Below the pieces are notes generated by a model that had not been told where the DNA came from, made no database searches, and worked only from the letters and a program-made list of their open reading frames with translations. Below, in pieces: positions 2-30,214 of a stretch of DNA of 33,871 bases (positions are counted from its first letter, which is position 1; each line of letters starts with the position of its first letter). A program made the position numbers and the translations under genes. The DNA comes from Gammaproteobacteria bacterium (lineage in GTDB: Bacteria > Pseudomonadota > Gammaproteobacteria > Ga0077536): positions 1 to 33,871 of the forward strand of contig JALRCR010000015.1 in NCBI GenBank assembly GCA_023257255.1, read 5' to 3'.

Positions 2-1027
2 GCCTCGATGCTGGTGGCCTATCTCGGCATCAATCTGCTTGCATGGTCGTCTGCATCGTTTGTTCTGCCGCTGGCGTCAGGTTTGCTGATGTTGGCCACG
101 ATGTTTGTGCTGAACATGTCCTATGGATATTTCGTCGAGACCCGCGGTAAACGCCAGATCACGGGACTGTTTGGGCAATACATTCCACCTGAACTGGTTG
201 ATGAGATGGCCCGAGATCCCGAGGCCTATTCGCTGGATGCGGAAAGCCGCGAACTGACCGTGCTGTTTTCAGACGTCCGGGGCTTTACGACAATTTCCGA
301 AGGGCTCAATCCGAAGGAACTCTCGTCTTTGATGAATCTGTTCCTGACCCCGATGACCGAAGTCATCCACGAATCCAGAGGCACCATCGATAAGTACATG
401 GGCGACGCCATCATGGCGTTCTGGGGCGCGCCGCTCGCAGACGCAGACCACGCGGGAAATGCGGTCAGGGCCGGCCTTGAGATGCTGGCCAAACTGGCAG
501 AAATCAATCGCGTGTTCGCAGAAAAAGGCTGGCCAGCGGTCAAGATTGGGGTGGGGATCAACACCGGCCCGATGAGCGTCGGCAACATGGGATCGGAATT
601 CCGGATGGCTTACACCGTGTTGGGCGACGCGGTAAATCTTGGCGCCCGGCTGGAAGGTTTAACCAAGAGTTACGGCGTAGAGATGCTGGTAAGCGAAACC
701 ACGCGCGAGGCCACGCCCCAGTATGCCTATCGGGAAATTGACCGCGTGAAGGTCAAGGGCAAGGACCGGCCCATCACCATCTATGAACCGCTGGGGCTGC
801 GCGAAACGCTGGATGGAAAGTGGAAAGACGAGCTGAAGCTGCTGCGCGAGGCACTCAAGCGGTACCGTGCCCAGGAATGGGATCTGGCAGAAATGAATTT
901 TCTTAATCTCGCGAGGAGTTCGCGTTCGCCGGGTGTTTATCTGATGTATCGCGACCGCATTACAGAATTCCGTCTGAACCCGCCGCCCAGGGACTGGGAT
1001 GGGGTTTATACGCATACCGCAAAGTGA
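2..1027 (+). CDS. CHASE2-type class III adenylate/guanylate cyclase, 5' truncated
   Basis: The frame is open from the first bases of the window, so the gene starts upstream; the ATG at 8 is internal. What remains begins with hydrophobic membrane segments (to about residue 45), a short linker, and a full class III nucleotide cyclase domain. The first metal-binding Asp sits in FSDVRGF, the second in DKYMGDAIMAFWG. YTVLGDAVNLGARLE carries the Thr typical of adenylate cyclases and the transition-state Asn and Arg. The membrane-linker-cyclase order is that of CHASE2 receptors, whose extracytoplasmic sensor would lie outside the window. The product would turn an envelope signal into cAMP (less likely cGMP). 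It converges on the FHA, phosphatase and kinase genes, the last of which also has CHASE2. The cyclase call is firm; CHASE2 is inferred from the architecture. Confidence 0.88.
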   Translation, partial: ASMLVAYLGINLLAWSSASFVLPLASGLLMLATMFVLNMSYGYFVETRGKRQITGLFGQYIPPELVDEMARDPEAYSLDAESRELTVLFSDVRGFTTISEGLNPKELSSLMNLFLTPMTEVIHESRGTIDKYMGDAIMAFWGAPLADADHAGNAVRAGLEMLAKLAEINRVFAEKGWPAVKIGVGINTGPMSVGNMGSEFRMAYTVLGDAVNLGARLEGLTKSYGVEMLVSETTREATPQYAYREIDRVKVKGKDRPITIYEPLGLRETLDGKWKDELKLLREALKRYRAQEWDLAEMNFLNLARSSRSPGVYLMYRDRITEFRLNPPPRDWDGVYTHTAK

Positions 1028-1117
1028 GGCGAGCCGCATCGCGGCGAGTAGCAATCAGCGACACCTTGGCCGGGAAGCAAACGCATCTACGAGACGCTTG
1101 CGCCTACGGCCAACGGC
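1028..1117. other. Convergent gap with weak inverted repeat
   Basis: This is the gap between two converging genes. It contains a 7-bp inverted repeat (1066-1072 TTGGCCG and 1107-1113 CGGCCAA) with a smaller internal AAGC/GCTT pairing. There is no T-tract on either side, so it is at best a weak bidirectional terminator. Confidence 0.25.
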
Positions 1118-1840
1118 TTAGGAGACCAGCGAGAACTCCATCTTGATACCCGCCAGTTCGATCACATCCCCCGGCTTGATGGCGTAGGCCTGAGCGCCGA
1201 TGGGCGTGCCGTTGACGATAGGGAAATTCATGGTTTTTCCGTCGCCTTCGATATGCGTCAGGAAATAACCCTGGGGACGGCGCGAAATCACGGCGACCTG
1301 TACACCGGGCTTCCCGAGTGTGATTAGGGCTTTCGTGAGTTCCAGCTGCTTGCCGGCGATCGGGCCATTCAGCACCTGAATACGGCCCAGCGGAAGTCCC
1401 GGAGGCACCGCAGGTGCGGTGGGGGCGGGTGCCGGCGCTGCGGCCGGCGGCGAGTTAGGCTCCGTGCCCGCTTTGGCCGCAGCAACGGCTGCGCTGGCCG
1501 AGCCGGGCCGGATAATCATGGTTTTTTCAAATTCTTCGTCATCGGCGGTCGCGTGCTCGTTGATGTACTTGAGCTCGTGTTTGCCGATGCCCACCACGTC
1601 GCCGTCGCGCAACGCGTGCTTCTTGATGAGCTTGCCGTTGACGTAGGTACCGTTCGTGCTGCCGAGATCTTCGAGGAAGGAGTCGTCAAGGATGGTGATG
1701 ACGAGCGCGTGCTTGCCGCTGACGGCCAGATTGTCGATCTGGATATCGTTGTCGGGCTTGCGGCCGATGGTCATCCGCTCTTTCTTGAGCTGGAATTCCC
1801 CTTGCACGGCGCCATTCAGGCTGAGTACCAGTTTGCCCAT
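1118..1840 (-). CDS. Two-FHA-domain phosphothreonine-binding protein
   Basis: A 240-residue cytoplasmic protein. Residues about 1-95 form a canonical FHA domain with GRKPDNDI, SGKHA and STNGTYVNG, the loops that bind phosphothreonine. An acidic stretch ending in EFEKTMIIRPG follows, then an Ala/Pro-rich linker. The C-terminal part (about 150-240) looks like a second FHA fold (LGKPGVQVAVISRRPQGYF, VNGTPIG, KPGDVIELAG) that lacks a clear S-x-x-H signature, so it may not bind phosphopeptide. The start ATG is 12 bases past the stop of the PP2C gene, so the two are probably co-transcribed with the kinase upstream. FHA proteins of this kind read out Ser/Thr kinase activity, and the Thr in EKTMII is a plausible phosphorylation site by analogy with GarA-type proteins (inference). 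Confidence 0.9.
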   Translation of the reverse strand: MGKLVLSLNGAVQGEFQLKKERMTIGRKPDNDIQIDNLAVSGKHALVITILDDSFLEDLGSTNGTYVNGKLIKKHALRDGDVVGIGKHELKYINEHATADDEEFEKTMIIRPGSASAAVAAAKAGTEPNSPPAAAPAPAPTAPAVPPGLPLGRIQVLNGPIAGKQLELTKALITLGKPGVQVAVISRRPQGYFLTHIEGDGKTMNFPIVNGTPIGAQAYAIKPGDVIELAGIKMEFSLVS

Positions 1841-1852
1841 AGTCGTGTCCTG

Positions 1853-2671
1853 TCAGCCTCCCATCAGGAAACTTTTGATTCTGGTGAGCGGCCCACCCGT
1901 CGGAATGCTATCGAGAGTAGCTCTGGCCAAAACCACGGTTACGTTGTCCTTACCACCGTTCTGATTCGCAAGGCGAACAAGTTCCTGTGCGGCAGTTGAA
2001 AGGTTAGCACCATATTTACCGAGGGTTAAGCTAATTTCTTCATCTTGAACCATATCATTCAGGCCATCCGAGCACAGCAGGAAAATGTCCCCTGCGGCCA
2101 GTGGCTGCTGCTGTACGTCTACCAGCACCATCTCTTCAACGCCGAGTGCCCGGGTAACGAGATTTTTAGGGGTATTCGCCTGCGCCTCTTCTGCGCTGTA
2201 GAACCCCCGGTCGATCATTTCCTGAACCAAAGAATGGTCGTTGGTCATCTGTTTGAGCTGGTTGTCCCGAAATCGGTAAATCCGCGAATCGCCCACATGG
2301 GCCAGGGTGACCCCGGTGGCCGTGAACAGGGCGGCCACGATCGTTGTGCCCATACCCTGACACTGCGGCAGCGCATTCGCCGCGTTGTAAATTCTCGTAT
2401 TCGCGCGCCCGATTGAGTCACGCATCACTTGCGCCTGGTCCGAATCTGCAGAACGTGACTTATGGACTGGCGTAAGCGCTTCACGGATGCCGTCCAGGAC
2501 AACCTGCACGGCAATTGCGCTGGCGACTTCGCCTGACTTGTAGCCCCCCATGCCGTCGGCGACCAGCGCCAGTCCCATGGAGGCATCGGTGACGGCACTG
2601 TCTTCGTTGTGTTTGCGCTTCAGGCCCGCGTGCGAGACGTTCGAAAATTCGACCTGTGGACGACTGCTCAC
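1853..2671 (-). CDS. PP2C-family Ser/Thr protein phosphatase
   Basis: A 272-residue soluble protein with the PP2C/Stp motif series: the N-terminal KRKHNEDS, VADGMGGYKSGEVAS, AHVGDSRIYRF, LLCSDGLNDMV and GGKDNVTVVL. The Asp residues in these motifs hold the two catalytic metal ions (Mn/Mg). No membrane segment or sensor domain is visible. It lies 21 bases after the Ser/Thr kinase stop and 12 bases before the FHA gene start. It is therefore the likely cognate phosphatase that resets the kinase and its FHA partner. Family assignment is firm; the substrate is inferred from context. Confidence 0.93.
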   Translation of the reverse strand: MSSRPQVEFSNVSHAGLKRKHNEDSAVTDASMGLALVADGMGGYKSGEVASAIAVQVVLDGIREALTPVHKSRSADSDQAQVMRDSIGRANTRIYNAANALPQCQGMGTTIVAALFTATGVTLAHVGDSRIYRFRDNQLKQMTNDHSLVQEMIDRGFYSAEEAQANTPKNLVTRALGVEEMVLVDVQQQPLAAGDIFLLCSDGLNDMVQDEEISLTLGKYGANLSTAAQELVRLANQNGGKDNVTVVLARATLDSIPTGGPLTRIKSFLMGG

Positions 2672-2692
2672 CGTGGGGCCTCCGGGGCAGTT

Positions 2693-5254
2693 CTAGGCGC
2701 CGACCTGCTTGGCGCAGGCCTGAATGTCGCGTGCCATATCGGCGCCGGTCTGATACCGCTGGTTCACATCTTTTTGCAGGGCCTTGTTGATGATCTCCGA
2801 CAGGCAGGGGCGCTGCGCCGCCAGTTCCGGCCGGATTTCCGCGATGTCCTGATGCGGTTCGTTCGCAATCTTGTACATCAAGGTGGCCATCGATTCGCCC
2901 TGGAAAGGCAGCTTGCCGATCACCATCTGGTAGAGCATCACGCCCAGCGAGAACAGGTCGGAGCGTCCGTCTACTTTCTTCCCGGAGAGTTGTTCGGGCG
3001 ACATATAAGACGGCGTGCCCAGCACCATGCCGGTCTTGGTTTTGCTCGAATCGGTGATGCGGGCAATGCCGAAGTCGGTCAACTTGACCGTCTTCTTGGT
3101 CGGTTCATACATGATGTTGGCGGGTTTGATGTCGCGATGAACGACGTTGGCCTTGTGCGCGTAGTCCAGCGCCAGCGCCGCCTTGAAAATAATCCCGAGT
3201 ACGATCGGTAATGGCAGCAGCGTATCCGCTTTGGTGTAGCGTGCGAGGTCGTGGCCTTCAAGAAATTCCATGGCGATATAGGCCAGATCGTGCTCTTCGC
3301 CGGCATCGTAAATCGTCACGATATTGGGATGCTGCAGGCGACCGGCCGTTTCCGCTTCGCGGAAGAAGCGGGACTTCACTTCATCAAGTTCGTCCGCTTC
3401 AAATTCCTGCGAGAGCGCCATGGTCTTGATGGCCACGATGCGATTGATCTTGGGGTCCTTACCGAGATACACGACACCCATCGCGCCCTTGCCCAGTTCG
3501 CGCTCGACGGCATAGCGGCCCAGCATGGTCTGTGGCATGCCGGGACCGGCCGGCATAATTGCCGTGCCGCCCGCGCCCGTGCTCCCCGGCGGCCGGCCGC
3601 TGGGGTAGAGCATCTGGGTGTCCATCATGTGCCGCGCTTGATTAATTTTGGCTTGTATGTCGCGGAATTTCGGGTTTTTCGAGTGCATGTACTCGTAAAC
3701 CAGCATCGCTTTTTCGGGTTTGCGTTTGACCTGAAAGTCGGTGGCCAGCGCGTACAAGGATTCGAGCAACTCATCGTCCACGGGGCAACGACGGAAATAC
3801 TCAAAGGCATTGTCCAACTCGCCTTTCTGCTGGAATTGCAGTGCGAGCTGGCGGTTTGACATGGCGGCCTTCAGATCGCTGTCGGCCGCGCCGCGTTCGG
3901 TTGCGAGATAGCGCTTGGTGGTCAGCAGCAAATGACCACTGATCAGCAAGGCTGCTGCAGTCACCAACTGGCTCCAGTTCGCCGTCGCCACCATCGCGCC
4001 GATTTCAGTTCCCAGCAGCACAAGCAGCAGGCTTGCGCTGCCCAGCGCTGCCGGGCCAGCTTTCAGCCGCGGTAACACCAGGGTCAGGTAGCCGGCGACG
4101 AGCAATACGGCCAGCAGTTCAAGCCACAAGGCCCAGTCGGGAGAGACGAAAAAGTGCTGATTAAGAATGCTGGCAACTTGATGCGCCAGAATCAGCACCG
4201 GGCCCTTGGCCTCGCCGACCGGCGTGTAAAGATCGGAGCCCACGCCGAACGCGGTAGGGCCAATCAGCACCACTTTATCCTTGAAACTCTCGAGCGCGGT
4301 CTTACCCTGCAGCACGTCGTAGAACGAGTAGACGGGAAAGGGCGCACGGCCGTCGGTGTCCCCGTAGTAGAACGTGTACATGTGGGAGTTGGGGTCGGTT
4401 TTGATGCGTAGGCCACCCAACTGCACGGAGTCGCCCAGCGCCAGTTTGATGTCCTTCACACCCAGATTGAGGCTTTTCGCGGCGGTCGCCAGCGCGAGCG
4501 AAGGGAAATACTGGTCGTAGTAGCGCACCACCAGCGGCTCACGTCGCAGCGTGCCGTCGCTGTCTACCGGGTTCATCAGGGAACCGAGCCCCGAGGCCGC
4601 GCTGCCGAGTGCCGCGACCGGGGCCGCGACGTCAATCATGGTGGGCGGGAAGTACTCATTACTGCCGCCGGGATCGCTGATATTTTCCGCAGGAAGTGCG
4701 AAGCGACTGACATATTCCGGCAACGGCTGGTCGGGGTTGCCAATGATTTCGCCGGGTGTGAATTGCATGCCCAGCACCGTGTTACCGGCGCTGCTCATGG
4801 TTTGACCCAGAATGGTGTCGGTGTCCAGCGCCGTCAGCGCCTCATTCAGGGTTTTGTTGACGTCGCCACCTGCGCCGGTGATGGTTGCCGAGGACAACTC
4901 GGTGCGCAGTTGCTTGATCCACTTCAAACCCGGATCGACCTGAGGTTCAGAATAGAACACGGTGGACGCGACAGCCTTGGCGCCGGCGTCGTGCAGTTTG
5001 TTGATCAGCGTAGCGTGGATATCTCGCGGCCAGGGCCAGCGACCAATGTTTTGAATGCTTTGGTCGTCGATCGCCACGATTGCGATTTGGTCCTTCCGCG
5101 TACTGGCCTCGCGCGAGGACAGCCGCACCCCAAGGTCATAGGCCATGCCCTCGAGTTTCGCCAGCGGTGCAGAACCAATGACCCAGGCCAGAATAAAGGC
5201 CATCGAAATGACAAGGCCCACGAAACGGTCGGATTTCCAGAAAGCTTTAGGCAT
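2693..5254 (-). CDS. CHASE2-domain transmembrane Ser/Thr protein kinase
   Basis: An 853-residue membrane receptor kinase. It has an N-terminal transmembrane helix, a large extracytoplasmic CHASE2 region (about 30-365), three closely spaced transmembrane helices (about 370-450), a cytoplasmic helical region resembling TPR repeats (about 465-545), and a C-terminal Hanks-type kinase domain (about 577-850). Kinase motifs are complete: glycine loop GKGAMG, VAIK (Lys about 610), HRDIKPAN (Asp about 708), DFGIA (Asp about 727) and the activation segment GTPSYMSPEQL. Unusually, the kinase is C-terminal to the sensor rather than N-terminal as in PknB-like kinases. The frame extends to a GTG at 5320, but the ATG at 5254 is preferred because it directly precedes the basic, hydrophobic N-terminus (MPKAFWKS). 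It leads the kinase-phosphatase-FHA set. Confidence 0.92.
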   Translation of the reverse strand: MPKAFWKSDRFVGLVISMAFILAWVIGSAPLAKLEGMAYDLGVRLSSREASTRKDQIAIVAIDDQSIQNIGRWPWPRDIHATLINKLHDAGAKAVASTVFYSEPQVDPGLKWIKQLRTELSSATITGAGGDVNKTLNEALTALDTDTILGQTMSSAGNTVLGMQFTPGEIIGNPDQPLPEYVSRFALPAENISDPGGSNEYFPPTMIDVAAPVAALGSAASGLGSLMNPVDSDGTLRREPLVVRYYDQYFPSLALATAAKSLNLGVKDIKLALGDSVQLGGLRIKTDPNSHMYTFYYGDTDGRAPFPVYSFYDVLQGKTALESFKDKVVLIGPTAFGVGSDLYTPVGEAKGPVLILAHQVASILNQHFFVSPDWALWLELLAVLLVAGYLTLVLPRLKAGPAALGSASLLLVLLGTEIGAMVATANWSQLVTAAALLISGHLLLTTKRYLATERGAADSDLKAAMSNRQLALQFQQKGELDNAFEYFRRCPVDDELLESLYALATDFQVKRKPEKAMLVYEYMHSKNPKFRDIQAKINQARHMMDTQMLYPSGRPPGSTGAGGTAIMPAGPGMPQTMLGRYAVERELGKGAMGVVYLGKDPKINRIVAIKTMALSQEFEADELDEVKSRFFREAETAGRLQHPNIVTIYDAGEEHDLAYIAMEFLEGHDLARYTKADTLLPLPIVLGIIFKAALALDYAHKANVVHRDIKPANIMYEPTKKTVKLTDFGIARITDSSKTKTGMVLGTPSYMSPEQLSGKKVDGRSDLFSLGVMLYQMVIGKLPFQGESMATLMYKIANEPHQDIAEIRPELAAQRPCLSEIINKALQKDVNQRYQTGADMARDIQACAKQVGA

Positions 5255-5343
5255 GGCCGAACCGTAATCTCCAACATGGTTTGTCCCCGATGGTAACCCC
5301 CGGTCCGGGTGGGTGAACACCGGAATCCGATCCGGATGCGAAA

Positions 5344-5802
5344 TTAGTCACACATTCTGGCCACGGCCTCCCGAGCAGAGTCGCGGGCTTTGCGGAGATC
5401 TGCCTCGCCCAGAATGCGCCTGGTGCCGTCCTGATCGCGGTCGTACAGGTAGGTCGCTTCGTTAAGTTCCAGCGCCTGCGTTTTGGCCTGCTCGCAGCCT
5501 GCCCTGCGCTTGTCCTCCACGTCGCGCGCTTGTTTTCGATCGGCCTCGCGCTGCGCGCGCTCGCCGACGAACTCCTCAAGCAAGCGCTCTGTGTGGTGGG
5601 TGCGATCAGGAGCCGCGCCGGACCTTGCGTGGCTGGGTGTCAGCTTGATGGCGCTTGCGCCTAGGCCATTGGGGCGGTCGCCAAAATGGGTTTTGCCATT
5701 CGCATCAGTCCAACGGTAAATCTCAGCCGCCACACAGCAGACGCCAAGCACCATGCCCAGCGTGAATACGAGTAGTTGCGGTTTGGTCCCGGGACGGCGC
5801 AT
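5344..5802 (-). CDS. DUF4124 domain-containing envelope protein
   Basis: A 152-residue protein of unknown function. An N-terminal hydrophobic segment (residues about 8-25), a signal peptide or anchor, is followed directly by the DUF4124 motif IYRWTDANGKTHFGDRP. The C-terminal half is charged and probably helical, with two Cys residues (one near the middle, one at the penultimate position). DUF4124 proteins are common periplasmic proteins of gammaproteobacteria with no assigned role. The frame runs up to 5862, but the ATG at 5802 (MRRPGTK) gives a sensible signal sequence. It lies 89 bases upstream of the kinase gene on the same strand; co-transcription is possible but not shown. Confidence 0.75.
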   Translation of the reverse strand: MRRPGTKPQLLVFTLGMVLGVCCVAAEIYRWTDANGKTHFGDRPNGLGASAIKLTPSHARSGAAPDRTHHTERLLEEFVGERAQREADRKQARDVEDKRRAGCEQAKTQALELNEATYLYDRDQDGTRRILGEADLRKARDSAREAVARMCD

Positions 5803-5963
5803 GGGCGAGTAGAACCCCGATGAAGTGCTCGTCGCGCATTGAAACGAAAGGCCGGCCCTCATGCAATTGTGAGCAGGCTCCGCGGGTTCGCGCCTTACCC
5901 CCGGAATTTGGCGGGATAAGTTCCCGTGGCCATCAATTTGGCGGCGCTGAAGGCTGAGCGCTG

Positions 5964-6031: not shown

Positions 6032-6060
6032 TTGGCAGAGCGCGGTTTAGGTCTTAGTGT
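6032..6060 (+). promoter_or_regulatory. Putative sigma-70 promoter of the RsmZ-like RNA
   Basis: TTGGCA (6032-6037), 17 bases, then TAGTGT (6055-6060, matching TAnnnT). It would start transcription at about 6067, immediately before the first hairpin of the RNA. The -10 box is weak, as expected for an activator-dependent promoter. Confidence 0.45.
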
Positions 6061-6066
6061 GGACTC

Positions 6067-6212
6067 GTGGCCGGCAAGGACGCTGGCCCGGAGTGCGGCA
6101 AGCCAGGACGGCGAAGTCGCACGCCGGAGGGTCTTCCCTGCGAGGGACGCAAGGATGGGTTGGGATAGACCAGGTACCGGTGCCCGTTAACTGCGGGCAC
6201 CGGTACTTCTTT
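6067..6212 (+). ncRNA. rsmZ: RsmZ-like CsrA/RsmA-sequestering small RNA
   Basis: This is a roughly 145-base structured RNA candidate with seven GGA triplets (6078, 6090, 6106, 6126, 6145, 6153, 6163). Two GGAs sit in hairpin loops, the preferred RsmA/CsrA target. Hairpin 1 has GGCCGGC (6069-6075) pairing with GCTGGCC (6082-6088), loop AAGGAC. Hairpin 2 has GTGCGGC (6093-6099) pairing with GTCGCAC (6116-6122), with an inner GCC/GGC stem closing the loop AGGAC. GGTCT (6130-6134) can pair with AGACC (6167-6171). It ends in a strong intrinsic terminator. The position also fits: in Pseudomonas aeruginosa rsmZ lies next to fdxA and mutS, and the same neighbours occur here. Such RNAs, driven by GacS/GacA, titrate RsmA/CsrA and relieve translational repression. 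The 5' end is predicted, not seen. Confidence 0.7.
6172..6212 (+). terminator. Intrinsic terminator of the RsmZ-like RNA
   Basis: A perfect 13-bp stem, 6174-6186 with 6194-6206, has a 7-base loop (6187-6193). It can be extended by one G-U and one A-U pair, and is followed by TTCTTT. It reads well on the plus strand; the minus-strand exit lacks a T-tract, so it serves the RNA rather than fdxA. Confidence 0.75.
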
Positions 6213-6248: not shown

Positions 6249-6572
6249 TCAGCGCTCGAGCAACGGCAGTTTGCCGGGTTTGCCCTTCCACTCTTCGTGG
6301 TCAGCCGGCGGGTCTTTCATCTCATTAATGACCGGCCAATCCTTCGCAAGCTCGGCATTCAGCTTGAGGAACGGCTGTTCCGCATCGGTCAGGTCATCTT
6401 CCGACTTGATGGCTTCCGCCGGGCATTCGGGCTCGCACAGGGTGCAGTCAATGCACTCGTCCGGGTCGATGACCAGCATGTTCGGGCCTTCGTGGAAGCA
6501 ATCCACCGGGCATACTTCAACGCAGTCGGTGTATTTGCACTTGATGCAGTTTTCGGTCACTACAAAAGTCAT
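6249..6572 (-). CDS. fdxA: FdxA-type 7Fe-8S ferredoxin
   Basis: A 107-residue ferredoxin, the standard length for FdxA. The N-terminal half carries two clusters of cysteines, [17 protein letters not shown] (residues 9-25) and [12 protein letters not shown] (40-51), which bind one 3Fe-4S and one 4Fe-4S cluster. The C-terminal half is the acidic, cluster-free extension typical of FdxA. It is a small soluble electron carrier whose partner is generally unknown. ATG 6572 (MTFVV) matches the family start; a GTG at 6584 is in frame. A perfect TATAAT lies 31 bases upstream of that ATG, so it is probably transcribed on its own after mutS. The mutS-fdxA adjacency is shared with Pseudomonas. Confidence 0.96.
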
Positions 6573-6603
6573 GGTGGTCAGCACTTCGATTTAAGGTGCG
6601 GGC

Positions 6604-6664: not shown

Positions 6665-9208
6665 TTATTCGCGGGCCAGATCGCGCAGGCGATACAGCAG
6701 ATCCAGCGCTTCCCGGGGCGATAGCTCATCGGGTTGCAGATTACGCAGCAGCTCAAGTGCGGGGGATGAAGGCAGAGGCAGGGGCAGATTCTGCTGTGGA
6801 GTTTCTGGGTCGGCGGCCAGATAGTGTGCCGTCAACAGGGCAAGCCGGTCGCGGGCCCGGGCCACCACGCTCCGGGGCACCCCGGCGAGCAGCGCCACCG
6901 CCAAACCAAAACTTTGATTGGCCGGACCTTCGCGTACCGCGTGCAGGAACACGACTTTTTCTTCGTGCTCCACCGCGTCCATCCGGACGTTGCCCACGCT
7001 GGGCAATTCCTTGGCGAGCGCGGTCAGTTCGAAGAAGTGGGTCGCGAACAAGGTGAAAGAGCGATTCACGCAAGCCAGATGCTCAGCCGCCGCCCAGGCC
7101 AGCGACATGCCGTCGAACGTGCTGGTGCCGCGCCCGATCTCATCAATCAGCACCAGACTACTGGCGGTTGCCTGGCGGAGGATCTGCGCGGTCTCGGTCA
7201 TTTCAAGCATGAACGTGCTGTGGCCGCGACTGACGCTGTCGGAGGCCCCGATGCGGGTGAAGATGCGGTCCAGCGGTCCAAAGCAGGCGTCGTTGGCCGG
7301 CACGTAACTGCCGCTGTGGGCGAGCACGGCGATGAGCGCGGTCTGCCGCATATAGGTCGACTTGCCGCCCATGTTAGGTCCCGTCACCACCAGCATCCGA
7401 CGCGCATCCTCCAGCAGCAAATCGTTCGCCACAAAAGGCTCTTCGCCGCGTTGTTCGACCACCGGGTGACGCCCCTGCCGAATTTCGACCAGCGGCTGAT
7501 CGCTAAACCGGGGCGGCCGATAGCCCAGCGTTTCTGCCCGCTCGGCAAAGCAGGCCAGCACGTCGAGTTCGGCGAGCGCGGCCGCGGCGTCCCGCAGGGC
7601 GTTGGCCTCTTCGGCCAGTTGCGCCAGCAGTTCGGCATAGAGCGTTCGCTCGCGACCCAGCGACTGGTCGTGGGCGCGCAGCACGCGGGTTTCGAAGCCT
7701 TTGAGTTCGGGGGTGATGTAGCGCTCTACGCCTTTGAGCGTCTGGCGCCGGAGGTAGTCGGCGGGCACCGCATCGCCGCGGCTGCGGCCGAGTTCGATGT
7801 AGTAACCGTGCACCCGGTTGTAGCCGACCTTCAGCGTGCCGATGCCCGTGCGTTCGCGCTCGCGTTGCTCGAGGTCGAGGAGATAGGCGTCGGCGTCGCC
7901 GGCCAGCGTGCGGAGCTCATCTAATTCGGCGTCGTAGCCCGGGGCGATCACGCCGCCATCGCGGGTAGTGAGCGGCGGCTGCTCAACGACCGCACGTTCC
8001 AGCAGGCCCAGCATGGTCGAAAACGCCGGGCAACGCGCCGTGAGGGCGGCCAGCAAGGGCGCGCCCGTGTCCGGCAGGCAGGCGGTAATGCCGGGCAGCA
8101 TGCGCAAGGTCTGGCGTAATCCGGCGAGGTCGCGAGGTCGGGCCGTCCCCAGCGAGAGGCGGGTGGTAATGCGTTCAAGGTCCGCAATCTGGCGCAACTG
8201 GTCGCGTAGCGAACTCAGCGTCAAGGCGTGCAGCAGGACGTCGACCGCCTGCAATCGTTGCCGGATTACGGCATGGTCACGACTGGGGCTTTGTAGCCAA
8301 CGGCGGAGCAGGCGACCGCCCATGGCCGATGCCGTGGTGTCCATCAGCGCAACGAGACTATGCCGCTCATCGCCATCCGGCCCAATGGCAATTTCCAGAT
8401 GGCGACGGGTGGCTGGGTCGAGCACGATGGCCTCGCTCACCTGCTCGATTTTAGGCGCCTGTAGTTGCGGTACCGGGCCGCAGTGCGTTTCTTCGCAGTA
8501 GGCGAGCAGGGCACCTGCCGCGCCGCTCAGCGCGGCCGCGTCGTCGAAGCCCAGCCCACGCAGGCTGCCCAGGCCGAACCGCTCGCGCAGCTGGCGCTCG
8601 CCGGTCGCCGGGTCAAACTGCCAGGCGGGGCGACGTTTGGCCCGCGTCAGTGCAACCGGCGGCGGCGCGTCGTCCGGATGCAGTACCTCCGCCGGCACCA
8701 GACGCCCCAACTCGGCCTCCAGCGCCTGCGTGTCGGCCAGCAACGCGACCCTGAACCGACCGCTGGCAATATCTGCCCAGGCCAGCCCGATCTGTCGGTC
8801 CCGCACACAGACGGCGGCCAGCAGGGTTTCGGTGCGGGCGCTGAGCAGGGCATCGTCGGTTACGGTCCCGGGCGTCAGGATTCTTGAGACGCGGCGCTCA
8901 ACCGGCCCTTTGCTGGTTGCCGGGTCGCCGACCTGTTCGCAGACCACGACCGATTCGCCCATTTTCAGCAGGCGGGCGAGATAGCTCTCGGCCGCGTGCG
9001 CGGGAACGCCGGCCATCGCGATTTTCTCGCCGCCGCTCTCCCCACGCGAGGTCAGCGTGATGTCGAGCAGGCGGGCGGCGCGTTGCGCGTCCTCGAAGAA
9101 AAGCTCGTAGAAATCGCCCATGCGGTAGAAGAGCAGCTGTTCGGGGTACTCGGCTTTGACCCCCAGATACTGGCGCATGACCGGCGTGTAGGCGCTCAGG
9201 TCGCGCAT
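6665..9208 (-). CDS. mutS: DNA mismatch repair ATPase MutS
   Basis: An 847-residue MutS1, the normal length. It recognises base mismatches and small loops and recruits MutL. The N-terminal mismatch-binding domain shows the Phe-x-Glu wedge in MGDFYELFF (about residue 31). Next come the connector, lever and clamp domains, and the C-terminal ABC-type ATPase with Walker [10 protein letters not shown] (about 608-616), Walker [17 protein letters not shown] and the conserved His in FATHFFEL. The start ATG lies 2 bases beyond the stop of the upstream TPR lipoprotein gene, so the two are translationally coupled. No frameshift or lost motif was seen. Confidence 0.98.
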
Positions 9209-17589: not shown

Positions 17590-18699
17590 TTAACGGTCGT
17601 AGCTGCGGTTTTTCCAGCGCGAGCGTTCTCCACGGAAATAACGGATGGCGGACGTCCAGGTCATTGCCAAATAAAGCGAGGCGGCGAGCGGCAAAGTTGC
17701 TGCCCACCACCAGCTACGGTCATAAAATCTCAGCACCGGCAGATAGCTGCCCATCATCGCAAGGCAGCCGAACGCGGCAGCCAGTCGCACCCCGCTGCCG
17801 GGGACGAAGAGCCCCAGCACCGGCACCAGAAAAGTCAGTACCAGTAACGCAGTACACAGGAGCAGCAGGGGCGTTGAATAGCGCAGCTGCGTGAACGCGG
17901 TACGCGCCACCATATTCCAGATACTGCTGACCGAGTCGTAAGGGCGCGCCGCCGCGACATCGCGGGAAAGTCCCAGCCAGGTTTGGCCGCCGCGCTGTTT
18001 CACGGCTCGCGCCAGCGTGCAGTCGTCGATCAGGGCGTCACGCAAGGCCGCGAAGCCGCCGAGGCCACGCAAGGTGTCGGTCCGGAGCAGGATGCACCCG
18101 CCGGCGGCGGCGGCAATCCAGCGCGTCTTGCCGTTGGCGAGCGCGAAGGGGTAAAGCATTTTGAAGAAGTAGATGAACGGCGGAATCAGCAGTTTTTCGA
18201 ACCAGTGCTGCATCGAGAGCGACGCCATCACCGACACCAGATCGCGGTTTTCACGCTCCAGCTTGCCCAGCAGCGCGTCGAGAATGCCCGGCGCCAGCGC
18301 GATGTCGGCGTCCATCAGCAGGACGTAGCGCGTCTCGACCTCCCGCAGCCCCTGTTCCAGGGCCCATAGCTTGCCCGACCAGCCAGACGGTGGCCGTTGA
18401 CCTGCGAGCACGGTGAGTTGGTGGATACCCAGCCCACGTGCCAGATTGCCGGTGCCGTCGTCGCTTTCATCGTCAATCAGAATGATGCGGGCCAAATCAC
18501 CCTGCGCGGCGAGGCGGGGCAGGGACTCGGTTATGCAGAGCGCCTCGTTGCGCGCCGGGACGAGCGCGGTGACTTCAGCAAGACCGCCCGCGGAGCCCGG
18601 CGCGGCGGCCGAGATTTGCTCGCGTGTGCCCCACGGGCGCCACGGCAACAGAAGAATGGAAAGCCACACCAGCGCGGCGGCCAGCGCCCAGATCAGCAT
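17590..18699 (-). CDS. hpnB: Hopanoid-associated glycosyltransferase HpnB
   Basis: A 369-residue membrane-bound family 2 glycosyltransferase. It has an N-terminal membrane helix, then the GT-A domain with VTALVPARNEA, ILIDDESDDGT, the metal-binding DMD-like LLMDADIALAPG and the acceptor motif LIDDCTLARAVKQRGG. Several C-terminal transmembrane helices (about 265-345) follow. This is the layout of HpnB, a protein found in hopanoid clusters whose precise reaction is not established; it is thought to add or modify a sugar on the side chain. The start is 47 bases after the hpnH stop and 23 bases separate it from the MlaC-like gene, so the four genes probably form an operon. Confidence 0.9.
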   Translation of the reverse strand: MLIWALAAALVWLSILLLPWRPWGTREQISAAAPGSAGGLAEVTALVPARNEALCITESLPRLAAQGDLARIILIDDESDDGTGNLARGLGIHQLTVLAGQRPPSGWSGKLWALEQGLREVETRYVLLMDADIALAPGILDALLGKLERENRDLVSVMASLSMQHWFEKLLIPPFIYFFKMLYPFALANGKTRWIAAAAGGCILLRTDTLRGLGGFAALRDALIDDCTLARAVKQRGGQTWLGLSRDVAAARPYDSVSSIWNMVARTAFTQLRYSTPLLLLCTALLVLTFLVPVLGLFVPGSGVRLAAAFGCLAMMGSYLPVLRFYDRSWWWAATLPLAASLYLAMTWTSAIRYFRGERSRWKNRSYDR

Positions 18700-18746
18700 C
18701 TGAAGGCCGTGATCAGACGAGGGTATGCGGCGCCTGGCTCACGGGC

Positions 18747-19865
18747 TCAGGCGACGCGCTTGGTGTCGGAGCCCGTCGGGGCGGTCGCCGGACGCGGCGC
18801 ATCCGGCACTGCTTCCGGGTAGCGGAACGGCACTTCGGGCGCCATCGGGCCGTCGGTGCGTGGCCCGAAGAAGGCCACCTTGGCCGCCTTGAGCGGGTGC
18901 GAGAAGGTGTCCTCGACAGCGGTCATTTCGTATCCGCAATGCATCATGCAGTTGGCGCATTTCGGATTCACCCCGGTGCCATATTTGTCCCACTCGGTCT
19001 CGTTCATCAGGCCGTCGAAGGTTTTGGCATAGCCTTCGCCGACCAACAGGTAACAGGGCTTTTGCCAGCCGAACACGTTACGCGTCACAGCGCCCCACGG
19101 GGTGCAGTGGTAGGTCTGGTTGCCGGCGAGAAAATCCATGTACAGCGGCGACTGGTTGAAGCGCCACTTGCGGCCGCGGGCCAGCCGGAAGATGTCGCGG
19201 AACAGCTGCTTGCTGGACTCGCGCTTGAGAAACACGTCCTGGCGGGGGGCGCGCTCGTAGCTGTAGCCCGGCGACATCGTCACCGCTTCGACATCAAGCG
19301 CCATCATGCGATCCATGAAGTGGCCAATTTCGGGGGCGGTTTCGCCCTGAAACAGCGTGCAGTTGACGGTGACCCGGAAACCACGCGCGCGCGCCTTGCG
19401 GATCACCTGCTCGCATTTCTCATAGACGCCCTCACGACACACCGAGGTATCGTGGCGGTCCTTGTTGCCATCCAGATGGATGGAGAACGTGAGGTAGGGC
19501 GATGGGCTGTACTCATCCATTTTCCGGTCAAGCAGCAGCGCATTGGTGCAGAGATAGACGAACTTTTTGCGAGCGACGAAGCCTTTCACAATTTCCGCCA
19601 TCTCTTTATGGATCAGCGGTTCACCGCCGGCGATCGACACCACGGGCGCGCCGCTTTCGTCGATCGCCTGCATGCATTCCTCAACGCTGAGGCGCTTGTC
19701 GAGAATTTCGTCCGGGTAATCGATTTTGCCGCAGCCGGCGCAGGCGAGATTGCAGCGAAACAGCGGTTCCAGCATCAGCACCAGCGGATAGCGCTTAATC
19801 CCACGCAGCTTGTTGCTGATGATGTAGCGGGCCACTCGGTACTGTTGGATCAACGGAACACTCAT
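18747..19865 (-). CDS. hpnH: Radical SAM adenosylhopane synthase HpnH
   Basis: A 372-residue radical SAM enzyme that attaches the 5'-deoxyadenosyl group to diploptene, giving adenosylhopane, the first step of C35 hopanoid synthesis. The cluster motif CNLACAGC (Cys 38, 42, 45) lies in the family-specific block RYPLVLMLEPLFRC. SIAGGEPLIH is the SAM-binding GGE motif. A C-terminal SPASM-like Cys cluster (CANCMMHCGYE) is present. ATG 19865 (MSVPLIQQYRV) matches the conserved start; the frame runs to 19910 without homology. It is divergent from dxs, and first in the hpnH-hpnB-mlaC-mlaA unit. Confidence 0.96.
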   Translation of the reverse strand: MSVPLIQQYRVARYIISNKLRGIKRYPLVLMLEPLFRCNLACAGCGKIDYPDEILDKRLSVEECMQAIDESGAPVVSIAGGEPLIHKEMAEIVKGFVARKKFVYLCTNALLLDRKMDEYSPSPYLTFSIHLDGNKDRHDTSVCREGVYEKCEQVIRKARARGFRVTVNCTLFQGETAPEIGHFMDRMMALDVEAVTMSPGYSYERAPRQDVFLKRESSKQLFRDIFRLARGRKWRFNQSPLYMDFLAGNQTYHCTPWGAVTRNVFGWQKPCYLLVGEGYAKTFDGLMNETEWDKYGTGVNPKCANCMMHCGYEMTAVEDTFSHPLKAAKVAFFGPRTDGPMAPEVPFRYPEAVPDAPRPATAPTGSDTKRVA

Positions 19866-20099
19866 GCGTGAAAACCCCGGCTGCGCTGGCAATAAACCAC
19901 TACGATTCAAAGGATTAAAAAAGCTCTAAGCCCAGCATGGTACGCCATCACCTCTAGCATCGGAAGCACGCAGGGCTGCTGCCTGCTGATGACGTAAGCG
20001 CGGGCGACCGGCCGCCTTCTCGGCTTGCAAGGCTTTCGAGCGGTATCCATAATCCAGAGCCCGATTGCATCGCGATCGGTTCTCCATCCGGATAAAGAC
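19866..20099. promoter_or_regulatory. Divergent hpnH-dxs control region
   Basis: A 234-base noncoding gap holds the start signals for hpnH (leftward) and dxs (rightward). Only the dxs promoter is clear. A candidate for hpnH on the minus strand (TTTAAT, 17 bases, TTTATT at about 19890-19919) is poor. No riboswitch-like structure was recognised. Confidence 0.5.
20025..20053 (+). promoter_or_regulatory. Sigma-70 promoter of dxs
   Basis: TTGCAA (20025-20030), exactly 17 bases, then CATAAT (20048-20053). Predicted transcription start is about 20060, giving a 40-base leader before the ATG at 20100. The -35 box coincides with an alternative TTG codon, which argues against the longer reading frame. 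Confidence 0.7.
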
Positions 20100-22001
20100 A
20101 TGACCGAGCAAAGCCAGTATCCGCTGCTCTCGCGGATCAACTCACCCCACGATTTACGCCAGTTGCCGGAATCCTCTCTGGAACAGGTCGCGCGTGAGTT
20201 GCGCGGCTGTCTGCTCGATTCGGTCAGCCGCAGCGGCGGTCACTTTGCCGCAGGACTGGGCTCGGTCGAGCTGACCGTTGCGCTCCATTACCTCTACAAC
20301 ACGCCCGAAGATCGTTTGGTCTGGGACGTGGGCCATCAGGCCTATCCACACAAAATTCTGACCGGTCGCCGCGAGCGTATGCACACCATTCGTCAGTGGC
20401 AGGGGCTGGCGCCGTTTCCGAAACGCGAAGAAAGCCCCTACGACGCCTTCGGCGTTGGCCATTCCAGCACCTCAATAAGCGCCGCGCTCGGCATGGCCAT
20501 CGCCGCGAAGAAAACCGGTAGCGGCCGCCGCGCCGTCGCGGTCATTGGCGATGGCGGACTCACCGCAGGACTCGCGTTTGAAGCACTGAACCACGCTGGC
20601 GATACCGGCACCGATTTGCTGGTGATCCTTAACGATAACAACATGTCGATTTCGCCCAACGTGGGCGCCTTGGCCAATCGGTTCGCGCAACTGATTTCCG
20701 GCAAGCTCTACACCACGGTGCGCGAGGGCAGCAAAAAAGTGCTGTCGCAGATGCCCAACGTGTGGGAGCTCGCGCGGCGCGCCGAAGAGCATGTGAAAGG
20801 GCTGGTGGTTCCCGGCACCTTGTTTGAAGAGTTCGGTTTCAACTACATCGGTCCAATCGACGGCCACCATCTGCCCACGCTGCTGTCGACCTTGCGCAAT
20901 ATCAAGGAACTGAGCGGGCCGCAGTTCCTGCACATCATTACCAAGAAGGGCAAGGGCTACGCGCCCGCCGAGGCCGACCCGGTCAAATACCACGGCGTAT
21001 CACCCTTTGACCCGACGGTCGGCATTGTCCCGTCCGGCAAGGTCGCCAAGCCTACCTACAGCGATGTGTTCAGCGATTGGATTTGCGACATGGCCGCGCA
21101 AGACCAGCGACTGGTGGCGATTACGCCCGCGATGCGCGAAGGCTCGGGACTGGTCCGGTTTGCCCGGGAATACCCAGAACGCTACTTCGACGTGGCGATT
21201 GCCGAACAGCATGCCGTCGCGGTGGCGGCCGGCATGGCCTGCGACGGCGTCAAGCCGGTCGTTGCGATCTACTCGACCTTCCTCCAGCGCGGCTACGACC
21301 AACTCGTGCACGACGTGGTAACCCAACATCTGCCCGTGTTGTTCGCGATCGACCGCGCCGGCGTAGTGGGTGCCGATGGTCCCACGCATAACGGCAGTTT
21401 TGACGAGAGCTTCCTGCGCTGCATGCCGGGCATGGTGTTGATGGCACCGGCCGACGAGAACGAGTGCCGGCAAATGCTCTACACCGGATTCCAAATCGAC
21501 GGTCCGGCTGCGGTGCGCTACCCGCGCGGTGGCGGCAGTGGCGTTGCGGTCGAGAAACAAATGACCTCGCTGCCGATTGGCAAGGCTGAAGTACGCAGAC
21601 GCGGGCAGGGTATCGCCCTGCTGGCCTTCGGCAGTCTGGTCTCGGCCGCCGAGGCAATTGGTCAGCAATTGGACGCCACCGTCGTCAACATGCGCTTCAT
21701 CAAGCCGGTCGACGAGGCGATGGTGCTGGAAATGGCCGCCACGCACAGCCTGCTGGTGACCCTGGATGAAAACGCCATCGCGGGTGGTGCGGGCGGAGCA
21801 GTGAGCGAAGTGCTCGCCGCCCATGCGGTCGCCGCGCAAGTACTGCATCTAGGCCTGCCAGACCGTTTCCTCGAGCACGGCTCGCGCGACGACATGCTGC
21901 GGGAAGCCGGACTTGGGACCGATCAACTGCTGGCGGCAATCACCGCGCGCTGGGCGCTGTTGCAGGATGCCGCGTCAGGGCAGGCGTCAGTCGCGCGTTA
22001 G
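20100..22001 (+). CDS. dxs: 1-deoxy-D-xylulose-5-phosphate synthase
   Basis: A 633-residue thiamine-diphosphate enzyme that condenses pyruvate and glyceraldehyde-3-phosphate, the entry and flux-setting step of the MEP isoprenoid pathway. Motifs: [20 protein letters not shown], the TPP-binding [15 protein letters not shown]...[12 protein letters not shown], and the transketolase-like [20 protein letters not shown] with the catalytic Glu. Length is close to E. coli Dxs (620). The ATG at 20100 lies behind GGATAAAG. Its position between two hopanoid gene sets suggests it supplies isoprenoid precursor for hopanoids, possibly as a second dxs copy. The 3' end overlaps the converging phnW gene by 15 bases. 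Confidence 0.97.
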
Positions 22002-23075
22002 CAGCTCACGGAAGGCCTGTGCCAGGCGGGCAAGGTCCTCGGTCGTCAGATCGCCCATGAGCGAAATCCGGAAGATGTCCGCGGCCAGACGACCCTGACC
22101 CGCGTAAATCACGAACCCCCGCGCCTTCAGTCCGGCGTGTAGTTCCTCGTAGCCCTGACCGGCCGGCAGCCGGAACGCTTGCAAAACGCAAGAGCAGTCT
22201 GCCTCGGGCAGGATGCCCTCGACTCCAAGCCCCGACAGCGTCGCGCGTGCCTGCCTCATTCTTGCCCGATACAACTGTTGTCGCGCCGCCTGACCGCCGG
22301 CGTCGGCAAACTCTGCCAAGGCTTCGTTCAGCGCATAAAAGCCCTGGACGGACTGCGTAAACGGCGTGCCACCTCGCTCCTGTTGCGTGAGGTAGGTGTC
22401 TAAATCCAGATACACCGAGCGCGCTGGCGTGCCACTGCGCGCAAAGCGCTGCCGGTTCAGGATGACGAATGAGACCCCCGGCACGCCGTGCAGGCATTTG
22501 TTGGCGGTGGCCGCGCAGGCCGCGATGGGCAAGGCGCGAAAGTCGATATTTTCAGCGCCAAAACTGCTGACTGCATCCAGTAATAAATCGACGCCGCGCG
22601 CAGCGCAGAGCGCGCCCAGGGCGTGCAGATCGTTCAGTCGGCCGGTGGTGGTTTCATGGTGAACGACCGCCACGTGAGTGGTATCCGGGAAAGCTTCCAA
22701 CTGTGCCTCAACCGCCGCGAGGCGCAGGCTCGATTCCCAGGACGTCGCGCAACGTGCGGTGGTGATACCGGCGCGTTCCGCCATCATGCTCATGCGCTCG
22801 CCGTACACGCCATTTTCAAGCACCAGCAAGCGACCGCTGCGCGGTACCGTGCTCGTCAGCATGGCTTCCACGGCCGCAGTGCCAGAGCCGGTCAGCAGCA
22901 CCGCCGCCCACGTGGTGGCATCAAGGTCGTATACCTTGAGCAGCGCGGCACAAATCGCGCCCTGCAGCGATGAAAACTCAATTTCGCGATGGCAAAGATC
23001 GGGTCGTAACAAGGCCTCCCTGACCCGCGGACTCAGCGTCACGGGGCCCGGATTGAGCAGCAGGGTACGGCTCAT
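21987..23075 (-). CDS. phnW: 2-aminoethylphosphonate:pyruvate-type aminotransferase
   Basis: A 362-residue PLP-dependent class V aminotransferase of the PhnW family. The N-terminus [20 protein letters not shown] is characteristic, [12 protein letters not shown] contacts substrate, DAVSSFGA holds the PLP-binding Asp (167), and [12 protein letters not shown] carries the Schiff-base Lys (193). PhnW interconverts phosphonoacetaldehyde and AEP. Beside PEP mutase and phosphonopyruvate decarboxylase the direction is biosynthetic. The same frame is open up to 23459, but that part overlaps the decarboxylase; the ATG at 23075 shares one base with the upstream TGA, a coupled start. It is the last gene of the phosphonate-hopanoid run. 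Confidence 0.93.
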
Positions 23076-24226
23076 CACGCGAGGCCGAGGTGCCGCCGCA
23101 GTCGCGCCATTGCAGCGGGCGGGGTGATGTGCGGTCGGGGCAGATCCGGCAGGCTGCCGGGGGCAGTTTTCAGATGGATGAAGCCGGCACCCGACTGGCG
23201 CGGGCGGGCAAGAAACTGGCCCAGCGTGTTGACCTCGGCCGCGCGCCAGACCTCGCCATACGCACAGGCCACAGCCACTGCGGCAAAGTCGACGCTGGCG
23301 CTGAGGGTGGCTTGGGCGCCGGTCGAGTCGTGCACCTCGTTGTCGAGCAGCACGTGGCTCAGATTGGCCGGGCCGTAGCGACCGCTCATCGCCATGTTGC
23401 CCATCCGCATCAGCGCCGCCCCGTCGCCGTCGACCACCACCACGTGCTGGTGCGGGCACGCGAGCGCGAGACCTAGTCCCAGTGCGGATGCGCAGCCCAT
23501 GGAGCCGACCATGTAGAAGTGATTGGCCCGATCGTTCAGCGCATAGAGTTCTCGCCCGGTGAAACCCGTGGTGGCAACGACCACCGCGTTGTCGAGCGGC
23601 GTGGCCTCAATCACGGCTCTCAGCGCCGCTGCGCGTGACGGGCGGCCGCTGCTGGCAGGTGCGGGAGAGCCCTTGATAGTGGCGACTGCGGCGGTGGTTC
23701 GCGCGGCGTCATCAACCAGTGGACAAGGGGCGACTGCGCCTTTCGGCATCAGCAGTGCGTACGGGCCTCGCGCCGCGGCGTGATGCGCGGCGGCCCGCGC
23801 CAGCGCCGGCCCCACCGCCGCCGGAGAGGCTGGGAACGGCTCCCAGGGGATTTGCATCAGATCCAGCAAGGCTCCGGTGATTTCGCCCATCAATGCGTGC
23901 TGTGGTTCATCGGGCACGTCTGCTGCGCCCCGGTGGGTGCAAATCAGCAGCAGCGGAATGCCGAACGTATGGTTCAACGAGGTTAGCGGACTGACGGCAT
24001 TGCCGAGCCCGGAGTTCTGCATCATCACCACCGCTGGCTGTCCGCCTAACCAGGCGCCGGCCGCGAACGCCACCGCATCACCTTCGTTGGCCGCCGGGAA
24101 GTAATGTAGCGACGGGTCGCCGATCACGTGGTTGATCAGCGGCGTGAGGTAAGAGCAGGGCACGCCGGTAAATCTGTCGTAACCCGCCGCCCGGAGCCCC
24201 GTGACGAAAGCTTTGGCGTCGATCAT
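23075..24226 (-). CDS. aepY: Phosphonopyruvate decarboxylase
   Basis: A 383-residue thiamine-diphosphate enzyme that decarboxylates phosphonopyruvate to phosphonoacetaldehyde, the irreversible step that pulls the unfavourable PEP mutase reaction. The N-terminal PYR domain starts FVTGLRAAGYDRFTGVPCSY, with the activating Glu in AANEGDAVAFAAGAWLGG (Glu 48). The C-terminal PP domain shows VVVDGDGAALMRMGNMAMSG and the downstream LLDNEVHDSTGAQ that holds Mg-TPP. It starts 8 bases after the PEP mutase fusion stop and overlaps phnW by one base. Ppd and sulfopyruvate decarboxylase are related, but the neighbours settle the substrate. Confidence 0.95.
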   Translation of the reverse strand: MIDAKAFVTGLRAAGYDRFTGVPCSYLTPLINHVIGDPSLHYFPAANEGDAVAFAAGAWLGGQPAVVMMQNSGLGNAVSPLTSLNHTFGIPLLLICTHRGAADVPDEPQHALMGEITGALLDLMQIPWEPFPASPAAVGPALARAAAHHAAARGPYALLMPKGAVAPCPLVDDAARTTAAVATIKGSPAPASSGRPSRAAALRAVIEATPLDNAVVVATTGFTGRELYALNDRANHFYMVGSMGCASALGLGLALACPHQHVVVVDGDGAALMRMGNMAMSGRYGPANLSHVLLDNEVHDSTGAQATLSASVDFAAVAVACAYGEVWRAAEVNTLGQFLARPRQSGAGFIHLKTAPGSLPDLPRPHITPPAAMARLRRHLGLA

Positions 24227-24234
24227 CTCGCGCC

Positions 24235-25905
24235 TTACTGGCTGCCGGCCGCGAAGTTGCCGGCACGTTCCAGATCGCGCACGGAGTTAACGTCCAGCCA
24301 ATGCCCGTGCACGTACCACACTTGCACGGGCTGACCATGACCAATCAGATGATTGATGAGATCCGGCACGCCCAGCGTGGAGAAATCGTCCCGCTGCCGC
24401 AGCGCTGCCAGCGCGTTGAGCAACCACTCACGGCCGACACCGCGGAACCGAACGAGCCCAATCCAGCGCCCGTGCGGCGGCAGTTCGTCGCGCTCGCCGC
24501 CGCTGCTGATTCGACGCAATTGCACTGCCTGACCCCAGCTGGAGCGGTCGTCTGCCTCGCTGCACCAAGCGAAGTCGGCAGGCTCTGAACTGTTGGCCGG
24601 TTGGTTAGAGTCGATGACGACGGTGACCGGCGCCTCGCACTCCAGCAGGTCGCGCAAAATGTAGCTGCGAAACAGCACGTCGCCGTAGACCAGCACAAAG
24701 TCTTCGGTGCAATACGCACTGGCGCAAACCAGCGAGGACAACTCGCCGGTCGTGCTGTGTGCCTCGTTGAGCAGCACGCGAATGCCGCCCACGTCGATCG
24801 CCTCGGCCTTGTAGCCGGCGACCACGGTGATGTCGTCGATGCCGCGCTTTTTCAGCTTGTCGACCAGATGGCGCAGCAGGGGTTTGCCGGCGATCGGCAG
24901 CATGACCTTGGGGCGGTCGTCGGTCAGCGACGCAAAGCCCTCACCGCGCGTGGCTGCGAGCACGATGGCGCGGGTATCGCCCTGTCGGGCGCCAAAATAG
25001 CGTTCCTCGGCGGCTTCCAGCTCCTCCGCACCCTGCAGGCGAAATATCTCGTCGACCGAGGCCACACGGTCCTCGATTTCGGCAATCGATTCTTCTCGCC
25101 GGATTTGGCCGGCCGTCGCCTGCATCGCCGCCGCTGCGGCTCTAATCAGTTGGTTGGCCCAGATCACGACGCTAATGCCGGCCCGCCGGAACACCTCGGT
25201 CGGTGTGCTGTAGTACTTGGTGGGGACAATGATCAGGGGCGCGCGATTGGCCCATGCGTGGGCAAATTCCAGGATTTGGTCGGGGCGTGACAGCTTGCTG
25301 TGGATCAGGATGGCGTCGGCCCCGGCCTGCCGATAGGCCTCGGCGCGACGCAGCGCCTCGTGCATATCCCAACCGGCGATGAGGGCCTCGCAGCGGGCCA
25401 CGATGCAGAAATCCGGGTCGGTCTGGATATCTTTGCCCGCCGCGATTTTGCCGCAGAACTCGTTGACGTCGGCCAGCGCCTGACGGTCGCCGGCAATAAA
25501 GCTGTTGGTCTTCGGAAACAGCTTGTCCTCAATGCAGACGCCGGCAATGCCGCGTTGTTCAAGCTTACGCACCAGACGGCGCATGTTGTTGAAGTTCCCG
25601 TAGCCGGTGTCGCCATCAAGGAGGATTGGGATCTGCGTGACGTCGGCCATGAACTCAGCCACGTCGACCACCTGCGTCCAGCTGGCTTCGTTGTTGTCGC
25701 GCACGCCCAGCTGGGCCGAGATCGCGAGCCCGCTCGCCCAAATTCCCTTAAAACCGGCTTCCTCGACGATGCGCGCGCTCAGCCCGTTATGAGCTTCGAG
25801 CAGAAACTCGAGCTCAAGAGAGGCAATCAGCTGACGTAGCCGGGTCGTCCGACGGGCGGCCGGGGCGTGCGCGTCAGACACGGTGTATGGCGGGCAGGAT
25901 TTCAT
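24235..25905 (-). CDS. aepX: Phosphoenolpyruvate mutase fused to a nucleotidyltransferase domain
   Basis: A 556-residue fusion. Residues about 20-305 are PEP mutase, which forms the C-P bond of phosphonopyruvate. The diagnostic motif [10 protein letters not shown] (126-135) is intact, with metal-site Asp residues in LLDGDTGYG (97, 99). Residues about 311-556 form a nucleotidyltransferase domain: [20 protein letters not shown] (Lys 333), VYGDVLFRS with the metal Asp, and [15 protein letters not shown]. Its glycine-rich loop departs from the usual GxGxR pattern, so its activity is uncertain. Fusions of this kind occur in phosphonate clusters and suggest CMP activation of the product. The ATG at 25905 overlaps the stop of the upstream PntC-like gene by 32 bases; a GTG at 25881 is a weaker alternative. 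Confidence 0.94.
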
Positions 25906-26614: not shown

Positions 26615-26619
26615 GTTGG

Positions 26620-28924: not shown

Positions 28925-28959
28925 GCCAGTGCTTGCCGTAGAGCGATCCCGGACCGTGC

Positions 28960-30045: not shown

Positions 30046-30130
30046 GCTTGGCGTCGCTCTTCCTCGAAACGGCGTGCTAACGCCTGCTGCGGATGGGTTA
30101 TGCGGGAAATCCATCCGCGTGAAGAAAATT

Positions 30131-30207: not shown

Positions 30208-30214
30208 ACTGTGT

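Follow-up and report, generated by a model that had tools for sequence, protein, structure and literature searches.

A predicted RsmZ-type CsrA-sponge RNA gene beside fdxA and mutS in a distant gammaproteobacterial order

Introduction

The locus studied here raises the question of whether a short intergenic stretch behind a ferredoxin gene holds a gene for a small regulatory RNA, and, if so, whether that gene is the one known beside fdxA in Pseudomonas. The stretch lies in a 33,871-nucleotide contig (JALRCR010000015.1, hereafter the window) from a draft genome of a member of the Gammaproteobacteria, where a sequence-only reading had proposed a conserved, RsmZ-like RNA. The gene order fdxA-rsmZ has been described for Pseudomonas (PMC4353343, PMC9788540), and in Alcanivorax dieselolei a GGA-rich RNA adjoining a ferredoxin gene, CsrR2, was detected by dRNA-seq, its authors pointing out in 2022 the parallel with fdxA-rsmZ of Pseudomonas (PMC9788540). 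The sponge RNAs CsrB/CsrC, RsmX and RsmY titrate CsrA or RsmA by means of GGA motifs (PMC7652899), the Xanthomonas RNA RsmU, which sequesters RsmA, was reported among mRNA-derived small RNAs (PMC7694677), and the sponge RNA of Halomonas was listed as unknown in a 2020 review (PMC7366521). In the open-licence literature no report of such an RNA was found for the order to which the window belongs. Among the genomes compared, the window's family (f1) makes up the whole of that order, with 36 genomes in 10 genera, and the fdxA flank could be collected from 34 of the 36.

Results and Discussion

The element and its fold

The candidate RNA gene occupies positions 6061–6212 on the plus strand, within a 386-bp gap between a DUF4124 gene (5344–5862, minus strand; Pfam PF13511) and fdxA (6249–6584, minus strand), and is supported by a covariance model, by its fold and by conservation in congeners; its start is placed from the −10 sequence and its end from the terminator, at about 6207–6212. 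It is convergent with fdxA and heads for the 3′ end of that gene, while the DUF4124 gene, its upstream neighbour, is transcribed away from it and has the same place across the order. fdxA encodes a 7Fe-type ferredoxin (Pfam DUF3470 and Fer4), whose start may be at 6572, as suggested by relatives that match from residue 3–5, and has mutS on its far side (6665–9208, minus strand; Pfam MutS I–V), so that both neighbours named in the sequence-only reading were confirmed.

GGA occurs on the plus strand at 6061, 6078, 6090, 6106, 6126, 6145, 6153 and 6163, i.e. seven times in 6062–6175, as had been claimed, and eight times if 6061 is counted. Of all 114-nt windows of the contig, both strands included, just 0.04% contain seven or more, but the count is marginal when dinucleotide shuffles of this G-rich sequence are the reference (p ~0.08), and because of this the number of GGA triplets by itself is weak evidence. 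The fold is far more distinctive, with −92.7 kcal/mol for 6040–6212 (z = −5.1) and none of 200 shuffles as stable. In the minimum free energy (MFE) structure of the 152-nt RNA, four of the eight GGA lie in hairpin loops. The two loops reported earlier are both present: hairpin 1 (6070–6087, GCCGGC-AAGGAC-GCTGGC) carries AAGGAC at 6076–6081, and the tip of hairpin 2 (6102–6112, GCC-AGGAC-GGC) carries AGGAC at 6105–6109. A further hairpin at 6140–6150 (GCG-AGGGA-CGC, a GAGGGAC-type loop) adds a third loop and is followed, up to 6157, by AAGGATG, which in the alignment of the genus corresponds to the third of the conserved GGA loops. The predicted RNA ends in an intrinsic terminator (6174–6212) with the 13 uninterrupted Watson-Crick pairs that had been described (6174–6186 with 6194–6206), the loop TTAACTG and the tail TTCTTT, which is TTTTTT in the sister genome. 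The T run is present in the plus direction only, and the terminator therefore belongs to a plus-strand transcript.

Evidence for the promoter is slighter. The pair that had been proposed, TTGGCA (6032–6037), 17 nt and TAGTGT (6055–6060), was located, with a poor −10 that matches at three of six positions, and most relatives have, as judged by eye, a −10-like sequence of the type TA(A/G)NCT at a similar distance. A consensus scan of the stretch called neither promoter nor terminator, missing the latter because its T run is interrupted.

Conservation within the genus and the order

The alignment of the RNA from nine genomes of the window's genus has 159 columns and a mean identity of 69%. The three loop GGAs are invariant in all nine, and two of them carry an invariant A two bases upstream. 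When the two GGA hairpins and the terminator were examined for covariation as three helices with 25 pairs in the nine congeners, 94.6% of cells were paired and 15 of the 25 pairs had changed on both sides, which none of 500 shuffles matched; in a control with slid partners pairing fell to 31–47%. Stem pairs of hairpin 1 and of the terminator are among those that covary. This combination of conserved loops with covarying stems marks, as judged from these alignments, an RNA under selection to display GGA, and the claim that the element is conserved, made originally from one sequence, is thereby upheld, with conservation among relatives well beyond chance. Per-sequence counts of GGA hairpins against shuffles were weakly informative with loose criteria and are superseded by the covariation test and by the terminator-anchored scan described below.

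The same results bear on whether there is a gene here at all. The stretch could be a shared terminator region of fdxA joined to a chance G-rich sequence, and the marginal GGA count and weak promoter would suit such a view; it is nevertheless scarcely credible given a T run in the plus direction only, compensatory changes in three helices, GGA loops that are invariant across the genus and an opposite-strand control that stays flat.

Across the order, 17 of 18 members had two to four GGAs in loops of the MFE structure and the remaining one had a single such GGA. In all 18 the 3′ end of the RNA stops short of fdxA, at a distance of 12–62 nt. This is relevant to a second alternative, in which the RNA would act by base pairing, either antisense to fdxA mRNA or as an Hfq-type small RNA, with its GGA runs incidental. 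Its convergence with fdxA, ending about 40 nt from the fdxA stop codon, could be taken to favor that role, which the Alcanivorax authors have proposed for CsrR2 (PMC9788540), but with the RNA ending before fdxA in every member measured, complementarity is confined to the fdxA 3′ untranslated region, and conservation is concentrated in the GGA loops and not in an antisense seed. We consider it very unlikely. In five genomes of the order (G013, G014, G021, G022 and G028) the RNA was not clearly recognizable at fdxA.

The flanking genes

The flank beyond the DUF4124 gene is where the window departs from Pseudomonas, as the sequence-only reading had noted. Pfam identifies, in a cluster spanning 8–5862 with the DUF4124 gene, a CHASE2-Ser/Thr kinase (2693–5320, minus strand), a PP2C phosphatase (1853–2671, minus strand), an FHA protein (1118–1840, minus strand) and a cyclase (8–1027, plus strand). 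No RpoS match occurred in the loci searched, the DUF4124 and CHASE2-kinase genes being found instead on the side where rpoS would lie. The order of the cluster is kept in most members of the order, parts of it are present even in genomes without a recognizable RNA (G013, G028), and a locus from another family, L052, shares its start. The portion common to the order, to Halomonadaceae and, according to the papers cited above, to Pseudomonas is thus mutS-fdxA-RNA. As a separate observation, the cyclase is preceded by a CHASE2-like region.

Relation to known RNA families

Rfam, which had been suggested as a check, disappointed at its curated cut-offs: no family reached the gathering threshold for the element, nor for related RNAs. 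PrrB_RsmZ (RF00166) scored 14.6 bits against a cut-off of 44, in a match that covers the whole model (1–133) on the correct strand, and there was no match to CsrB/CsrC, RsmX or RsmY even at E up to 5–10. A hit to sX7 (24 bits against a cut-off of 55) was rejected, its match being centered on the terminator and downstream flank.

R1, a covariance model trained on the window's genus alone, was applied to the fdxA loci. In the window's own genome, which contributed to the training set, its sole match is 6062–6212 at 130 bits. At the fdxA flank it scored 66.8, 53.8, 42.6, 30.3 and 28.3 bits in genus g8, 30.4 in g10 and 27.6 in g9, in each case adjoining fdxA and convergent with it, and it scored 25.3 bits behind fdxA of Halomonas lysinitropha. 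In the one Pseudomonadaceae-like genome examined (L149), R1 matched exactly the stretch that Rfam calls as RsmZ, at 27.3 bits (84.2 with Rfam); in this genome rsmZ adjoins rpoS, and fdxA lies on a different contig. When 78 named fdxA loci (465 kb) were scanned with R1, the four best matches included three that lay immediately behind fdxA, on the strand opposite to it. Class-wide scans of whole genomes with RF00166 and R1 gave few confident matches, mostly weak ones, and are too insensitive for a census.

A second, model-free scan sought GGA hairpins followed by a terminator in 220 fdxA flanks, with the other strand as control. On the strand antisense to fdxA scores rose to 17, with 13 loci at 7 or above, and the other strand never exceeded 4. 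Among the positives are loci of the order itself and of Halomonadaceae (L074, L093, L127), together with L141, L059 and L049; they represent a lower bound, as the scan misses some members of the order and also L052, which is positive by inspection and was lost because of the limit on G-T pairs. Xanthomonadales-type, Methylophaga-type and most other fdxA flanks examined were negative, so that the fdxA-linked RNA locus is patchy in the class. The RNAs behind fdxA in the three Halomonadaceae loci and in L141 are clearly RsmZ-like and go unrecognized by Rfam.

Taken with the architecture, these patterns indicate that the locus is very probably a free-standing gene for an RsmZ-type small RNA that would sequester CsrA/RsmA, and most likely one that shares its ancestral gene with RsmZ of Pseudomonas; common descent is favored because strand, place 3′ of fdxA-mutS and architecture are all the same. 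An RNA with the same mechanism but another ancestry, whether a CsrA sponge of independent origin or a relocated RsmY/RsmX-type copy, appears unlikely. It would accord with a similarity to the Rfam RsmZ model that is below any cut-off, with the capacity of GGA-hairpin RNAs to converge in evolution and with the finding of nothing at fdxA in most orders examined, for which a single descent needs several losses or transfers. It would not account for the same flank, strand and architecture in the order, in the families of L052, L059 and L049, in Halomonadaceae and, by published description, in Pseudomonas and Alcanivorax, nor for the recovery of a true RsmZ in L149 by a model built from one distant genus. 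The RsmZ-like reading proposed at the outset is thus supported by locus, by architecture and by that match.

Compared with RsmZ/PrrB, the window RNA shares multiple GGA hairpin loops with a terminator, a location beside fdxA-mutS and a length class (152 nt against the 137-nt match in L149), and differs in its score with the Rfam model, in the kinase, phosphatase, FHA and cyclase genes that with DUF4124 replace rpoS, and in lacking the box TGTAAG-N6-CTTACA. CsrR2 is likewise GGA-rich and by a ferredoxin gene, in a different order, the likeness resting on its published description. CsrB/CsrC, RsmX and RsmY are alike as GGA-motif sponges, which is the function predicted here, and differ in giving no Rfam match to the element. 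RsmU, which sequesters RsmA in another branch of the class, is unlike it in having been reported among mRNA-derived small RNAs, and among the Xanthomonadales-type fdxA flanks examined none has an RsmZ-like RNA. To our knowledge, the genomic place of the window RNA is typical of none of CsrB/CsrC, RsmX and RsmY. This is a known kind of regulator extended to a distant gammaproteobacterial order, and not a new kind. Conserved structure, GGA loops, synteny and neighborhood, together with csrA in the genus, are what the sequences provide.

Proposed action and the presence of csrA

Transcription would run from about 6061 to the terminator at about 6207–6212, and the product is predicted to display three or more GGA motifs in the loops of hairpins and others single-stranded. 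These motifs would be the binding sites for CsrA/RsmA dimers, several of which could be held by one RNA, and by analogy with RsmZ/CsrB the titration of CsrA off mRNA leaders might change translation of CsrA targets. Transcription, binding by CsrA, the sponge effect and the signal that drives the promoter are steps that we infer.

The sequence-only reading had made its case depend on a csrA homologue in the genome, and here the answer is divided. None was found in the window's own draft, which is 87% complete, and a full-length csrA is present in seven of eight congeners, in one or two copies; the one congener CsrA that was read has Arg44. Given the incompleteness of the draft and the presence of the gene in nearly all of the genus, the missing csrA reads as an assembly gap. 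Two genera with small genomes, g3 and g4, have neither csrA nor an RNA at fdxA, a joint absence that fits dependence of the RNA on CsrA, in two lineages only. As an observation apart, in genus g7 two nearly complete genomes (G014 and G021; loci L014 and L015) have no detected csrA and keep gacA by uvrC, and at their fdxA two GGA hairpins are retained without a clear terminator T run, possibly a decaying locus.

GacA and the input to the RNA

The earlier reading had also suggested looking for gacA in the genome, and this too is answered in part. With the NCBIfam GacA model (cut-off 280 bits), Pseudomonadaceae-like and Halomonadaceae genomes scored 270–325, passing or nearly so, and genomes of the order at most 208, with 163 in the window's own. 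To conclude from this cut-off that the order has no GacA proved wrong and was rejected, as many of its members have, upstream of uvrC like gacA in L206, a divergent regulator that groups with GacA in the tree (support 97/92). Beside uvrC, nothing GacA-like was found in congeners G001, G003, G004, G005 and G006 or in the window's own genome, whose two best GacA-like proteins fall outside the GacA clade. The uvrC-linked gacA thus appears to have been lost in the window's own sublineage. Among the uvrC loci L230–L255, gacA is also missing from that place in the csrA-less genera g3 and g4.

Upstream of the RNA, the GacA box TGTAAG-N6-CTTACA matched at 7–9 of 12 positions in 18 members of the order, the same as in shuffles, compared with 11 of 12 in L149 and 10–11 of 12, palindrome-like, in the three Halomonadaceae loci. 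Because no such box is recognizable in these 18 members and no GacA-like gene was found by uvrC in the window's sublineage, the input to the RNA has probably changed from Gac. A fuller scenario can be offered tentatively, as one that is possible though on the doubtful side: the sublineage may have kept the sponge RNA and csrA while losing gacA at uvrC, the RNA then responding to a different input, which might be the neighbouring CHASE2-kinase/PP2C/FHA/cyclase cluster, so that an RsmZ would have been rewired off Gac.

The fdxA-linked RsmZ locus is accordingly not peculiar to Pseudomonas, being found also in a distant and sparsely described order and in Halomonadaceae. Sponge RNAs that Rfam misses can be sought in a simple way, by position beside fdxA together with a small covariance model, and comparing lineages that have csrA and gacA with those that lack them makes rewiring of the Gac-to-Rsm circuit testable.

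Other observations

Two public records of metagenome-assembled genomes, L069 and L141, carry labels that look mistaken: they are named Klebsiella pneumoniae and Pedobacter, and the mutS-fdxA loci in them belong to gammaproteobacteria of quite another sort. Elsewhere in the window, at 17590–30402, genes of a phosphonate pathway are interleaved with the hopanoid genes HpnB, HpnH, HpnA and HpnG and a squalene-synthase-like gene. The pathway genes encode a PEP mutase–nucleotidyltransferase fusion, phosphonopyruvate decarboxylase and 2-AEP aminotransferase, and the region also has a CDP-alcohol transferase-like gene and a second gene for an NTP transferase. This is possibly a phosphonolipid or phosphono-hopanoid cluster. 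The squalene-synthase-like reading frame as called (28960–30402) runs across a tRNA (30134–30207, minus strand), and its true start must therefore be downstream of the tRNA.
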